A stretch of 5,623 nucleotides of DNA from Actinomycetota bacterium. GTDB taxonomy: Bacteria; Actinomycetota; Actinomycetes; Nanopelagicales; Nanopelagicaceae. The DNA lies in NCBI GenBank assembly GCA_009704285.1, contig WLEM01000044.1:1-5623 (forward strand). Direction: 5' to 3'. Positions 946 to 5,039 of this stretch are shown piece after piece (the stretch's first letter is position 1; each line of letters starts with the position of its first letter). Under the pieces are notes generated by a model that worked only from the letters and a program-made list of their open reading frames with translations, was not told the DNA's origin and made no database searches. The position numbers and the translations under genes were made by a program.

Positions 946-2193
946 ATGAATAAGAGTCGGTTGCGAGAATTTGCACCTATCACCTTAATTCTTGGCTTTG
1001 CCCTCACACTTCGGCTTTGGCGACTAAACCAACCAAAAGGTTATATTTTTGATGAGATCTACTATGCAAAAAATGCAGCCTCACTAATTAATGATGGCGT
1101 TGAGTTAAATGCGCAAGGTGATGCTGAGTTTGTCGTGCACCCACCCCTGGGAAAGTGGCTAATTGGGTTGGGAATTAAGGTATTTGGCGACAATGAGTTT
1201 GGCTGGCGAATTTCAGCAGCGCTTATTGGTAGCGCCTCCGTCTTATTGATTTTTATGATTACGAAATTACTTTTTAACTCTTTATTTTTAAGTAACACTG
1301 CAGCTGCTTTGATGTCACTAGATGGCTTACACCTGGTGATGTCACGGGTTGCACTCCTTGATATCTTCCTGATGTTTTTTATTTTATTAGCATTTTATTT
1401 AATACTTCAAGATAACTTGTGGTTAAGTGGGATGGTAATTGGAGTTGCTGGTGCTACTAAGTGGAGTGCTTTTTTCCTTATACCGCTACTGATTTTACTG
1501 ACTATAAATTTTAGTAAATTTCATTGGAGTATTTTGGTAAAGCGAATTGCTCAATACATACTTACACCCCTTGGTATTTACTTTATTTCATGGAGCGGTT
1601 GGATCTTTAACTCAAATGGCTGGGGCAGGGATTCAGGCTCAAATCTGTTTTCTTCACTCTGGAATTATCACCGTGAAATTATCACTTTTCATCGAGAGTT
1701 AACTGAAGCCCATGCCTATGCAGCAAATCCGTGGAGTTGGTTAGTACTAGGCCGGCCTACCTCTTTCTACTACCAGACGCCAACAAACTGTGGTGCATCC
1801 TCTTGTTCGCAGGAGATCTTGGCAATTGGAACACCAATGCTGTGGTGGGTTGGAGTCTTTGCAATTGCAATTACTTTTGGCTTCTTTATATCTAAACCCG
1901 ATCGAATATCTGCATTTGTTTTAGCAGGAGTTGCTGGCACCTACCTGCCATGGTTTTTCATACAAGAAAGAACCACTTTCTATTTTTATTCAATTTCAAT
2001 ACTGCCATTCTTAATACTTTCTGTAATAAACCTTATGAATTGGGCCTTAAACAAAGGCTTAGATCGAAGATACCTATATGGCTATCTAGTATTAGTGGGT
2101 GTTAATTTCATTTACTTCTTACCAATATTGGTTGGATTAGAAATTCCATACTCAGATTGGATCAACCGAATGTGGTTGCCTAGCTGGATTTAA
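946..2193 (+). CDS. Polyprenyl-phosphate-mannose--protein mannosyltransferase (PMT family, GT39)
   Basis: This multispanning membrane enzyme is predicted to transfer mannose from polyprenyl-phosphate-mannose to Ser/Thr of proteins as they are exported through Sec, like Rv1002c of Mycobacterium tuberculosis. The first membrane segment (about residues 10-27) is followed by an outer loop with the catalytic acidic pair FDE (Asp36-Glu37) and HPPLGKW at 65-71. SRVALLD spans 133-139 and ATKWSA 170-175. A second outer loop carries GRPTSFYY and the NCGASSCSQE block with Cys282 and Cys287. LPW at 334-336 and ERTTF at 341-345 precede the last membrane segments. The terminus RMWLPSWI is the usual actinobacterial ending, so the gene is complete. 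At 415 residues it is roughly 100 shorter than typical actinobacterial PMTs, apparently through trimmed loops. It is divergent from rsmI, a pairing also found in mycobacteria, and its stop abuts that of sepX. Confidence 0.93.
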   Translation: MNKSRLREFAPITLILGFALTLRLWRLNQPKGYIFDEIYYAKNAASLINDGVELNAQGDAEFVVHPPLGKWLIGLGIKVFGDNEFGWRISAALIGSASVLLIFMITKLLFNSLFLSNTAAALMSLDGLHLVMSRVALLDIFLMFFILLAFYLILQDNLWLSGMVIGVAGATKWSAFFLIPLLILLTINFSKFHWSILVKRIAQYILTPLGIYFISWSGWIFNSNGWGRDSGSNLFSSLWNYHREIITFHRELTEAHAYAANPWSWLVLGRPTSFYYQTPTNCGASSCSQEILAIGTPMLWWVGVFAIAITFGFFISKPDRISAFVLAGVAGTYLPWFFIQERTTFYFYSISILPFLILSVINLMNWALNKGLDRRYLYGYLVLVGVNFIYFLPILVGLEIPYSDWINRMWLPSWI

Positions 2194-2916
2194 CTATTGG
2201 TTAACAGCTCTGTCTTCTTCAGAGAGGTTTGCTGCAATTTCTTGATCAAAAAAGTCATCATCTCTACCTGATAAAGCTTTAACTCGCTCTTGCTCAGCAC
2301 TCCACTGACCAGTAGTGGTTAGATCAATTATTCGTTTACTTGGAACCGCTTTAGCCGCTGTTGTGTAGACAGGTTTTGGAACTTTTGTTGGCTGCCAACC
2401 TTTTCGATCCTTTGGAACTACTACCACTCCAGTGATCTCTGGGCGCTCAGAAAATGGAATCCAATGCTCTTTGCTACTTTTTTCTGTAATTGGATCTGGA
2501 ATTACTGTAGTTGGAATCTTACTGTTAGTGATCTTCTCTAATGCTTTTAATCTCCTGGCTTTAAGTTGTGAGGCCACTACCTGTTTTCGAACATTTACTA
2601 CATAAATTAGTAAAGCTGTCATCGGTATTAATGTTGTAGTTAAATCTAAAAATCCAACAGATGCAAAAATCAAAGCGATAAAACTTAAAGAAAACAATGA
2701 ACCAAATATAAGTTGTCGCTGGAAATAGATTCTGCCTTTATCTTCAATTCTTGGTTCAGTCTTTACACTCGGGTTGTTTTCGGCAACTACCTGCATTGCA
2801 TTCTTATATCTTTCAATTGCTTTTCCTGAAGTGTCTTCATGCTTACTTAACCATTGCGGTAAGAAGTAGGCAGCCCACATCGCGATGATGATTAAGTAGA
2901 TAAAACCCGAACCCAT
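2194..2916 (-). CDS. sepX: SepX/GlpR-type septation membrane protein
   Basis: The protein resembles actinobacterial SepX (Streptomyces, septation) and GlpR (Corynebacterium, membrane receptor of the gephyrin-like protein Glp in division and polar growth). The start at ATG 2916 gives 240 residues beginning MGSGFIYLIIIAMWAAYFLPQWL, broken here as MGSGFIYLII and IAMWAAYFLPQWL, which matches the usual N-terminal helix ending in a PxWL motif. A TTG four codons upstream (2928) also opens the frame but adds residues not typical of the family. A charged segment (about 25-65) is followed by two adjacent membrane helices (about 68-110). The basic and then low-complexity cytoplasmic tail contains GWQPTKVPKPVY, the conserved W-P-VP-P-Y block of the family. 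The tail ends acidic (DDDFF, SEEDRA). It is the last gene of the glp-rimJ-sepX cluster and abuts the convergent mannosyltransferase with no spacer. The assignment rests on remembered family features plus gene order. Confidence 0.82.
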   Translation of the reverse strand: MGSGFIYLIIIAMWAAYFLPQWLSKHEDTSGKAIERYKNAMQVVAENNPSVKTEPRIEDKGRIYFQRQLIFGSLFSLSFIALIFASVGFLDLTTTLIPMTALLIYVVNVRKQVVASQLKARRLKALEKITNSKIPTTVIPDPITEKSSKEHWIPFSERPEITGVVVVPKDRKGWQPTKVPKPVYTTAAKAVPSKRIIDLTTTGQWSAEQERVKALSGRDDDFFDQEIAANLSEEDRAVNQ

Positions 2917-2924
2917 AAAGCACA

Positions 2925-2930
2925 ACAATA
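2925..2930 (-). promoter_or_regulatory. Possible -10 box (TATTGT) of sepX
   Basis: TATTGT on the minus strand ends 8 nt before the ATG at 2916, implying a leaderless or nearly leaderless message. No Shine-Dalgarno sequence precedes that ATG. The nearby palindrome contains TTGAAT (2946-2951, minus), a partial -35 match with a short 15-bp spacer. A private promoter would let sepX be expressed apart from glp-rimJ. Confidence 0.33.
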
Positions 2931-2977: not shown

Positions 2978-2994
2978 TTTATTTTATTTTATTT
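2978..2994. repeat. Period-5 microsatellite (TTTAT, 3.4 units) at the rimJ stop
   Basis: Adenines at 2981, 2986 and 2991 are separated by runs of four T, giving a 17-bp tract of 5-bp period. It covers the last two codons and the TAA stop of rimJ. Slippage by one unit would alter only the extreme C-terminus of the acetyltransferase. Confidence 0.6.
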
Positions 2995-3544
2995 CTGGAT
3001 TTTCCTTAACAAAAGTAATGTGATTACGCCAATCCCCAGCAATATGAAGGTAGTTGTTTCTAGACCCTTCCAATACATACCCAGCTTTTACTGCAACTTT
3101 CTTTGATGCCTCATTTTCTGGGCGAAGGTTTATTTCAATGCGATGCAACTTAAGGCCATCAAATCCAAACTTAGTTAATAGCTTGACTGCTCTGGTGGTG
3201 TAGCCGCGGCTGGCAAAGCGTTGATCGATCCAGTAACCAATATGGGCTCCCCGCATCGCACCAAAAATTATTCCACCTAAAGTTATTTGACCAATTAGTT
3301 TTTGTTCACCATCTTCACTTAGCCAAATCCCTAGCGAGATAGATCGAAGTGCTCTTATCTCCTTATTTAACTGCATGACCATTCCATAATAAGAAGGAAG
3401 TGGTGCATTACTTTCAATCTTAGGTCTAGTTGCCTCCCAAGGTGAAAGCCAATCTCGATTTACTGCGCGAACTGCATCCCACTCTGCTTTATCCCTAAAA
3501 CGAATTGGCCTTAAGGTAATTTCATGATCAACTAATTTTTTCAA
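2984..3544 (-). CDS. rimJ: RimJ/RimL-like GNAT N-acetyltransferase
   Basis: This 186-residue single-domain GNAT enzyme uses acetyl-CoA and by family is expected to acetylate the N-terminal amine of a protein; the target is unknown. The N-terminus has ITLRPIRFRD (9-18) and the DWLSPWEATRP block (31-41) typical of the actinobacterial RimJ found beside glp. The strand GQITLGGI (85-92) leads to AHIGYWID (100-107) and the acetyl-CoA-binding turn ASRGYTTRAV (111-120). LHRIEINLRPEN (133-144) and the final YLHIAGDWRNH (165-175) complete the fold. The start is TTG at 3544: a TAG stop lies two codons upstream and no ATG is available. It overlaps the glp stop by 4 nt (TTGA), so the two are probably translationally coupled. 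The position between glp and sepX is conserved in Actinobacteria, but a role in division is only suggested by that context. Confidence 0.9.
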   Translation of the reverse strand: MKKLVDHEITLRPIRFRDKAEWDAVRAVNRDWLSPWEATRPKIESNAPLPSYYGMVMQLNKEIRALRSISLGIWLSEDGEQKLIGQITLGGIIFGAMRGAHIGYWIDQRFASRGYTTRAVKLLTKFGFDGLKLHRIEINLRPENEASKKVAVKAGYVLEGSRNNYLHIAGDWRNHITFVKENPEIK

Positions 3545-4452
3545 CGTCTATCCTGGTTTAACTTGATAACACTGACCGAATCACCAGAGTTTAATTTTTC
3601 CTCCTTCTCACCAAGTGTTATTAAACAATTTGCCTTAGAGAGTGTCATAAGTGATTCCTGATCTGCCAATGGCGATACCTGACCATCGGCATTTAATTCA
3701 CCTCTTATGTAAGAGGCTACACCTGAAGGTGAAGTTACTGATTTAGTTAACTTCACTTTCTTATTCGGCTTATCTGTACTTACGCCAGTTAACATCTTTG
3801 TGATCATTGGTCTGATAAATAGCTCTGCAGATAGAAAGTTACTAATTGGATCTCCTGGCAAAACCACTACTGGGGTTTTATCTGGACCAATCAACCCAAA
3901 GCTATGTTTGCTGCTCTCGGAAAGTTTTGGTGTGACAATTTGAATCTCGCCAAGTGTTGATATTACTGAGGTAATCAAATCAAATGATTCATCCTTTGAT
4001 TCACCACTAATTACGATCAAATCAGCTCTTACTAATTGATCTTCAATTACTAATTTTAATTGCTCGGCTGTTTCTGGAATTGTGTGTACTCGAAATGCAT
4101 GAGCTCCCACCTCTCGAGCAAAGGTGGTTAAAAACCAAGAATTACTCTCAAACTCATCATCGGTATCTGCCAATTTGCTTCCGGGCTCAACTAAGTCATC
4201 ACCGGCACTGATGATTACAACTCGTGGATGTGGTCGACATGGCAATCTATCTAGACCAAGAGAGGCAGCTAGTGCTATTTGAGTTGAATCAATTAATTGC
4301 CCGTTCCTGATTACTGGTTTTTCATCCACTAACAGGTCACTAGCCAAGGTAGCCCCATGCGCATCTAAGAGTGGCAGGTCAAGTGCGGCTAAGGGCTTAC
4401 TTAAATTAAGTAACTGCTCCTGAAAAGCGCCGACTGTCACCACTTCATCCAT
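3541..4452 (-). CDS. glp: Glp: gephyrin/MoeA-like protein with internal domain loss
   Basis: The ends and core belong to the MoeA/gephyrin-E family. The N-terminal helix has LDLPLLDAHGATLASDLL (24-41). IALAASLGLD (59-68) and RVVIISAGDDLVEPG (77-91) follow, then ESNSWFL (102-108), VVLPGDPISN (196-205) and FIRPM (212-216). A final beta-rich domain starts near 225 and includes the family's SGVASYIRG-type strand. Full-length relatives have about 400-425 residues; this one has 303. The gap falls between residues 43 and 52, where about 100 residues including the DNSAMDGYA motif should lie. The GGVS loop is replaced by GESKDESFD (150-158) and the PGKP motif by KLSESSKHSFG (176-186). Molybdate insertion into molybdopterin is therefore unlikely. 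With rimJ and sepX downstream, the better inference is the division role shown for corynebacterial Glp with GlpR. The ATG at 4452 is supported by family alignment and a TAGGGT box 6 nt upstream. Confidence 0.85.
   Translation of the reverse strand: MDEVVTVGAFQEQLLNLSKPLAALDLPLLDAHGATLASDLLVDEKPVIRNGQLIDSTQIALAASLGLDRLPCRPHPRVVIISAGDDLVEPGSKLADTDDEFESNSWFLTTFAREVGAHAFRVHTIPETAEQLKLVIEDQLVRADLIVISGESKDESFDLITSVISTLGEIQIVTPKLSESSKHSFGLIGPDKTPVVVLPGDPISNFLSAELFIRPMITKMLTGVSTDKPNKKVKLTKSVTSPSGVASYIRGELNADGQVSPLADQESLMTLSKANCLITLGEKEEKLNSGDSVSVIKLNQDRR
3551..3554 (-). promoter_or_regulatory. Shine-Dalgarno AGGA of rimJ
   Basis: AGGA lies 6 nt before the TTG start of rimJ, inside the end of glp. 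It supports the TTG start and shows that this internal operon gene uses SD-led initiation, unlike the leaderless-looking first genes of this window. Confidence 0.6.
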
Positions 4453-4496: not shown

Positions 4497-5039
4497 ATGG
4501 GTAATAAAGAAAATAAATCACAGCTGCGCAAGCAGTACCGAAAAGAGAGAGCGGATCGATTTATTGCTGATAGTTGGCTCCATATTCTCTCAGCAAAAGA
4601 GTTTGAGAATATTGAAAATGTTGGTTCATACATCTCATATGAGTTTGAGCCAGAAACTAGTGATCTAAATCAAAGGTTAATCTCTGCTGGTAAAACAGTT
4701 TTTCTGCCAAAGGTTATAAAAGATAATGATTTAGCCTGGGTTAAGTGGGATGGAACGAGTGCAAATCTTAAAAAGGTTGGCAAAAGTTATGAACCAATTG
4801 GAGATGCAGATATCAATGTAAATCTTGATCTAATAATTGTGCCCGCATTACATGTTGATCGCGCAGGAAATCGACTAGGCCAAGGTGGTGGCTCTTATGA
4901 TCGCGCGTTGGCAAAAAGTAAGGCTTGGACCATCGCACTGCTGCACCGCGGTGAATTAACTAGTGAACCACTTCCAGTTGAGCCTCATGATCAAAAGGTA
5001 AAGGCTGCGGCAACTCCTGAGATTATTGTTAGATTTTAA
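4497..5039 (+). CDS. 5-formyltetrahydrofolate cyclo-ligase (methenyl-THF synthetase)
   Basis: The enzyme uses ATP to convert 5-formyltetrahydrofolate to 5,10-methenyltetrahydrofolate, returning a storage or inhibitory folate to one-carbon metabolism. The 180-residue length is normal. A basic N-terminal helix (SQLRKQYRKER, 8-18) corresponds to the conserved K-LR-x-R start of the family. VGSYISYEFEPET lies at about 41-53, FLPKV near 70 and LIIVPALHVDRAGNR before the signature RLGQGGGSYDR at 126-136, the ATP/Mg-binding loop. The glutamine in this loop departs from the usual RLGYGGG form, as is usual in actinobacterial members. The tail HDQKVKAAATPEII matches the family's conserved C-terminal block. 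The gene is divergent from glp, an arrangement common in Actinobacteria where galU often lies between; no galU is present here. Its TAA overlaps the stop of the convergent acyl-CoA dehydrogenase. Confidence 0.94.
   Translation: MGNKENKSQLRKQYRKERADRFIADSWLHILSAKEFENIENVGSYISYEFEPETSDLNQRLISAGKTVFLPKVIKDNDLAWVKWDGTSANLKKVGKSYEPIGDADINVNLDLIIVPALHVDRAGNRLGQGGGSYDRALAKSKAWTIALLHRGELTSEPLPVEPHDQKVKAAATPEIIVRF

Follow-up and report, generated by a model that had tools for sequence, protein, structure and literature searches.

A reduced Glp without domain II, kept beside rimJ and glpR across nearly all of the Nanopelagicales

Glp, a protein of the MoeA type viewed as a repurposed enzyme, and its membrane partner GlpR/SepX have already been published (PMC10522489, PMC11733289, PMC8748795; what is taken here from these and other papers comes from parts of their text). 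The 5,623-nucleotide stretch analyzed here, contig WLEM01000044.1 of assembly GCA_009704285.1 from an actinobacterium of the order Nanopelagicales and called the window below, carries a glp gene that looks too short for such an enzyme. The question is whether a Glp can dispense with part of its active site and, if so, what work is left for it. The original prediction, made from the sequence of the window, proposed that the domain with the DNSAMDGYA motif and the catalytic aspartate had been lost in frame, leaving a shorter scaffold in a division-linked gene cluster.

The alignment contains 60 proteins, namely 24 full-length Glps, 29 reduced ones, and 7 canonical MoeAs; the reduced Glps of the window's order are called R1 and make up 14 rows. 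Between the anchor columns at window L36 and G51 there are 14 residues in 14/14 R1 rows, the window included, versus 112 to 136 in the 24 full-length Glps and 105 to 112 in the canonical MoeAs. The window junction at 43|44 aligns with Corynebacterium glutamicum Glp 40|152 and with Escherichia coli MoeA 47|146, give or take a few residues at the ends. In C. glutamicum Glp, domain II comprises residues 46 to 145 (PMC10522489), and because the missing span covers these, the loss is one of domain II together with its linkers. The proposed in-frame loss is confirmed by both reference proteins, and so is the absence of the catalytic aspartate, since E. coli D59 falls in the gap; the positions of T100, R137, and D142 lie inside the lost part as well. 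Modeled alone by AlphaFold, as had been suggested, the window protein retains domains I, III, and IV, whose predicted joint fold is that of MoeA. In a structure comparison of this model, MogA/MoaB-like folds come next after those of MoeA type, and no solved MoeA lacking domain II is among the 50 entries of that comparison, which excludes none elsewhere. MoeA-like proteins of about 340 residues without domain II probably occur in other phyla.

Bases 4294-4326 encode residues 43 to 53, DEKPVIRNGQL, at the junction. The Pfam domains of the protein are MoCF_biosynth (80-218) and MoeA_C (232-298); MoeA_N (PF03453) was not found in the Pfam scan of the 303-residue protein, and the MoeA_N domain with its D59 region, which a MoeA molybdotransferase requires, is therefore missing. 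The NCBIfam model for Glp, NF045515, aligns over profile positions 145 to 403 of 403 and scores 220 bits where its cut-off asks for 475, so that the protein misses both that cut-off and the four-domain architecture. Judged by its sequence, it is a reduced Glp descendant that stands outside the curated Glp definition, and among proteins of solved structure the closest in sequence is C. glutamicum Glp (8bve).

The original prediction dealt with a single odd gene, whereas the reduced Glp turns out to be common to nearly the whole order. All of the best 120 of 4187 database matches to the window Glp are 299 to 303 amino acids long, and in a scan of species genomes 13/13 related loci are reduced, one of them titled Candidatus Nanopelagicus, so the survey of relatives found the same deletion rather than the full domain. 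With a profile of eight reduced proteins, the best 120 of 6672 matches, Candidatus Planktophila vernalis included, all lack MoeA_N annotation and measure 301 to 305 amino acids except for one of 364; the two Candidatus names point to the order Candidatus Nanopelagicales. The Glp profile matches 242 of 251 genomes sampled from the order; 4 matches exceed the cut-off and are full-length, the other strong ones, among the matches listed, begin at profile position 137 to 144, and those in G094, G202, and G235 are marginal. In a sample of the class, the order contributes 41 genomes, of which, among the matches listed, 40 fit the reduced profile end to end and one, G048, is full-length; the counts of both samples rest on the matches listed, so reduced forms elsewhere are undercounted. 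One reduced glp match (G024:C1:161409-162311) has a single in-frame TAG, which may be a sequencing error, a pseudogene, or real.

The concern that some 300 bp had been dropped in assembly is answered by the same junction recurring in many independent assemblies. Contigs of 1.36 to 1.51 Mb, about the entire stated genome, carry the reduced form (G015, G022, G025, G019, G028), so the missing bases cannot be put down to one faulty assembly. The idea of a split gene, with domain II at some other place in the genome, was likewise rejected because 180/251 genomes have no MoeA_N match, and artefact or split gene together have practically no chance of being the explanation.

Profiles of the reduced proteins also detected short Glp forms outside the order. 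The lineage called R2 belongs to another order, in which, among the matches listed for 119 genomes, 16 genomes have full-length profile matches and 2 have partial ones; R2 genomes are 1.3 to 1.8 Mb, with domain II lost beside rimJ and glpR, and among 120 relatives listed from the protein database 94 have at most 345 amino acids and 26 are longer. R3 (G542 = L094, G493 = L095) has both a reduced, rimJ-glpR-linked gene and a separate full-length MoeA-type gene of 411 amino acids; because its genomes are 3.5 to 3.7 Mb, a small genome is not required for the reduction. R4 (G331), R5 (G642), and R6 (G665) are single, highly diverged cases. The residues at the junction number 14 in R1, 18 in R2, 19 in R3, 13 in R4, 31 in R5, and 8 in R6, and rimJ and a glpR-like gene lie downstream in R2 through R6. 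Loci L096 (G642) and L097 (G665) are more eroded, with domain IV and most catalytic motifs unrecognizable, yet they too sit beside rimJ and a glpR-like gene. The short protein at L098 (G658) was rejected as a reduced Glp, being a partial canonical-type MoeA without rimJ or glpR, and was left out of the tree and the counts.

Glp-type and canonical MoeA rows separate at 98/99 in both trees, and R1 groups with full-length Glps from the window's order at 100/99 in the first tree and 100/98 in the second. By the approximately unbiased (AU) test, a single loss for R1 and R2 is rejected (p = 0.0033) and one origin of all reduced forms is disfavored (p = 0.021). The first tree needs three changes and unites R3, R4, R5, and R6 (R3-R6) at 98/94; R2 together with R3-R6 is not rejected (p = 0.44). 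R4, R5, and R6, each represented by one long row, have no firm place in the tree. Without them, the test returns p = 0.136 for R1 joined to R3 and p = 0.365 for R2 joined to R3, and in the second tree, which omits them, R3 shifts beside the long C. glutamicum branch and the pairing of R2 with full-length P0341 (95/86 in the first tree) is gone. Many backbone branches of the second tree are weak; R1 and R2 each stay at 100/100. Two independent losses of domain II are well supported by these comparisons, and a third is suggested only.

The reduced gene is under purifying selection. The window glp has dN/dS of 0.108 versus L001 and 0.082 versus L002, and wider comparisons give 0.065 to 0.104, rough values since dS exceeds 1, next to 0 to 0.20 for neighboring genes; with an overall span of 0.065 to 0.108, similar to the neighbors, a pseudogene was rejected. 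The gene has also stayed in its division-linked cluster, as the original prediction held: of 58 reduced-glp loci, those of R1 from whole genomes being the best-scoring ones and not a random draw, all have rimJ downstream in the same orientation and 56 also have glpR. L013 ends 83 bases past glp, and the glpR match of L102 is weak. In the window itself, the GlpR-like label of 2194-2928 depends on position and on a partial match to SepX_GlpR_2 / NF050099, at 81.5 bits below a cut-off of 150. With GlpR below the NCBIfam SepX/GlpR cut-offs, automatic annotation likely misses it in the window's lineage.

How the reduction relates to the molybdenum cofactor pathway was followed with profile searches in the 251 genomes. 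MoeA_N is found in 71 and MoaC in 68, both in 66, MoeA_N alone in 5, MoaC alone in 2, and neither in 178; genome completeness is not stated, so single absences of a marker are weak. Glp is matched in 169 of the 178 genomes with neither marker, or 167 without two marginal ones, and G015, G022, and G025, each essentially one contig, carry neither. The report in PMC5301498, as far as its text was available, of only one acI strain with formate dehydrogenase and the molybdenum cofactor pathway fits the rarity of both markers here. Full-length Glps are held by 4 of the 71 MoeA_N genomes; in 54 of the remaining 67, MoeA lies elsewhere than the reduced glp, the other 13 not being comparable, and G019 and G028 have separate MoeA and MoaC beside a reduced Glp. 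Because MoeA lies apart in those 54, the domain II loss is not tied to loss of the pathway.

Outside the gap, E. coli MoeA E188/D228/K279/R350/S371, active-site positions for which mutants are on record by title, correspond to D/E/S/R/S in the window, the S371 counterpart lying in a shortened loop where the alignment is uncertain. D59 and E188 are kept in 24/24 full-length Glps, and K279 in 0/24 (19 Q, 3 N, 2 H; the E. coli row is itself the K279Q mutant); because no full-length Glp has K there, Glp chemistry was doubtful before the deletion. The window keeps E. coli MoeA D259 and has T in place of K275, which we take to be active-site residues too. In its introduction, PMC11733289 treats the question of whether Glp retains enzymatic function as unanswered, and that paper argues for enzymatic loss from the degenerate active site.

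The full-length Glps of the order (L014-L017 / L138-L141, in G142, G073, G121, and G048) adjoin moaC, and each of these genomes has one MoeA_N match; rimJ and glpR follow the full-length glp in 3/4 of them, the G142 contig ending first. In these genomes one full-length gene may work in cofactor synthesis as well as in division, in contrast to the published rule that there are at least 2 copies.

The surfaces that the reduced protein has kept are of Glp type. P74, R121, E137, D138, Q139, L140, and R142 are conserved in 48 to 51 of 51 Glp-type rows, from which the eroded L096 and L097 are excluded, and each occurs in at most 1/7 canonical MoeAs. The counts per 51 rows in the EDQLVRAD motif are E 49, D 48, Q 51, L 48, and R 48; of the two proline-rich linkers that join domains I and III in Glp, the second, RPHPRVV, is present, with P74 in 50/51 Glp-type and 0/7 canonical rows, and a proline-rich hinge between domains is described for Glp (PMC10522489). 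These residues are candidate partner surfaces. In C. glutamicum, a domain IV hairpin at the dimer center, far from the putative active site, binds the FtsZ tail, and Glp binds GlpR with nM affinity (PMC10522489). In R1, in R2, and in the full-length Glps, domain IV evolves faster than domains I and III; the mean identity of domain III in R1 is 66.5%. The FtsZ-binding loop M361-Y369 of Corynebacteriales is shortened in the window. Full-length Glps other than that of C. glutamicum vary at the hairpin and pocket positions too, most of those shown lacking M361, so the hairpin change is no mark of the reduced form alone. Since the hairpin is shortened and most pocket residues are replaced, the role that remains may not be the one known from C. 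glutamicum.

We regard it as likely that the reduced Glp is a non-catalytic partner of GlpR/SepX, descended from a Glp that lost domain II, with a direct grip on FtsZ left undecided. Domain II, with the counterparts of D59, T100, R137, and D142, was cut out in frame; molybdenum insertion would have been abandoned, and the protein would act at the division site as cytoplasmic partner or scaffold of the membrane protein GlpR/SepX, its binding and location being predicted. Contact would be made through the proline-rich hinge and the EDQLVRAD helix. The main reason to expect a surviving division role is that removal of domain II leaves the dimer center in place. Domain II would then be dispensable for the GlpR job, and would have gone early in the history of the order and, independently, in one or more further lineages. 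More tentatively, domain II may have been discarded repeatedly, and not only with cofactor loss, to leave a minimal and purely structural part of the divisome that in this order has shifted from the FtsZ tail toward GlpR/SepX. As for a natural split of structural role from molybdenum chemistry, the loss of domain II and D59, the kept cluster, and the occurrence in genomes without MoeA_N or MoaC are as predicted; the structural role itself we infer.

Several observations weigh against a GlpR/SepX partner. The division link of the reduced Glp comes from sequence and gene order, and the NCBIfam cut-offs are unmet for both Glp and SepX/GlpR. The mean identity of domain IV in R1 is 41% versus 67%, the C. 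glutamicum residues V338, L343, M361, Y369, and F414 have become K, T, N, absent, and K in the window with L360 alone kept, and a C. glutamicum mutant without the hairpin binds neither FtsZ nor GlpR (PMC10522489). A protein that has lost FtsZ binding and serves only GlpR/SepX, or else another partner, for example the neighboring acetyltransferase, would explain the mostly replaced FtsZ-contact residues and the shortened hairpin next to a glpR kept in 56/58 loci; we consider it unlikely, though the strongest competitor in this set, since the same positions vary in full-length Glps and the FtsZ tail is conserved in 25/25 genomes examined.

Less probable still is a function outside division, in which the MogA-like domain III binds a small molecule or another protein and the cluster is merely inherited gene order. 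The conservation of domain III and the MogA/MoaB-like folds as next structural matches speak for it; glpR, however, is downstream even in diverged lineages, the gene acts in division in Streptomyces and C. glutamicum (PMC8748795, PMC10522489), and the kept motifs are those separating Glp from canonical MoeA. A decaying relic of cofactor synthesis in streamlined genomes is very improbable. It would account for the lost catalytic residues, for MoeA_N and MoaC missing in many genomes of the order, and for the strong erosion of L096 and L097, but not for dN/dS values like those of the neighbors, nor for a gene kept across nearly the whole order, alongside separate MoeA and MoaC (G019, G028) and in the large R3 genomes.

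Among known systems, C. glutamicum Glp (MoeA2; PDB 8bve, 8bvf; PMC10522489) shares with the window protein the clade, the III-I-IV fold, the proline-rich hinge, the rimJ and glpR neighbors, and the FtsZ tail. The window protein differs from it in lacking domain II, in a shorter hairpin, in mostly replaced pocket residues, and in scoring 220/475 bits. Compared with canonical MoeA (E. coli 1g8l; the MoeA of about 390 amino acids of the same order), it has lost D59, T100, R137, and D142 and replaced K279, and the reduced form occurs where neither MoeA_N nor MoaC is found. The gephyrin E domain (2fts) and plant Cnx1E (5g2r) share the MoeA fold and both keep domain II; gephyrin is a membrane receptor scaffold and a fused enzyme with both roles (PMC11733289). 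The single-domain MogA/MoaB-like proteins (1mkz, 1r2k) have no domains I and IV and no glpR link.

Coordinates of glp, its parts, and the adjacent genes in the window
Feature	Position	Strand	Basis
Reduced glp (moeA-like) gene, 303 amino acids, without domain II	3541..4452	-	Open reading frame, Pfam, NCBIfam, alignment
Deletion junction, residues 43|44; C. glutamicum residues about 41-151 absent, ends uncertain by a few residues	4321..4326	-	Alignment
Residues 40-48, short strands 40-42 and 45-48 closing domain I at the former domain II site	4309..4335	-	AlphaFold model
Proline-rich linker of domains I/III, residues 72-82 CRPHPRVVIIS, conserved Glp type	4207..4239	-	Alignment
EDQLVRAD, residues 137-144, conserved in Glp-type rows, mostly missing in canonical MoeA	4021..4044	-	Alignment
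Domain IV hairpin region, residues 246-261, shortened; counterpart binds FtsZ in C. glutamicum Glp	3670..3717	-	Alignment
rimJ-like GNAT acetyltransferase gene directly downstream of glp, 4-base overlap	2984..3544	-	Pfam, NCBIfam
glpR/sepX-like membrane protein gene, 244 amino acids, hydrophobic stretches near 1-25 and 71-111	2194..2928	-	NCBIfam, hydropathy
5-formyltetrahydrofolate cyclo-ligase gene, divergent, conserved upstream neighbor of glp	4497..5039	+	Pfam

Farther out in the window, a protein O-mannosyltransferase homologue at 946-2193 (+) is convergent with glpR, and an rsmI-like methyltransferase gene at 44-886 lies head to head with it; the same pair also occurs close to L138 and L140, two clusters with a full-length glp.

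What is new here is the Glp without domain II; Glp itself, GlpR/SepX, and the repurposed-enzyme view are known. A description of such a Glp was not found in open-licence PMC titles and abstracts, and the supplements of PMC10522489 and PMC11733289 may hold such sequences. Searches that require the MoeA_N Pfam domain overlook reduced Glps, and the three-domain filter given in the methods of PMC11733289 is of that type.

The domain II part of the active site is missing in nearly a whole freshwater order and in at least one independent lineage, with rimJ and glpR kept alongside, and in these abundant freshwater actinobacteria Glp probably has a task other than its former chemistry. If the division role holds up, nature offers a case in which structure and chemistry come apart, the compact protein of about 300 residues would lend itself to structural studies of the scaffold, and removal of domain II in C. 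glutamicum would be a direct test. Should domain II indeed have been discarded repeatedly, these lineages would amount to natural domain-deletion experiments on gephyrin-like scaffold surfaces.
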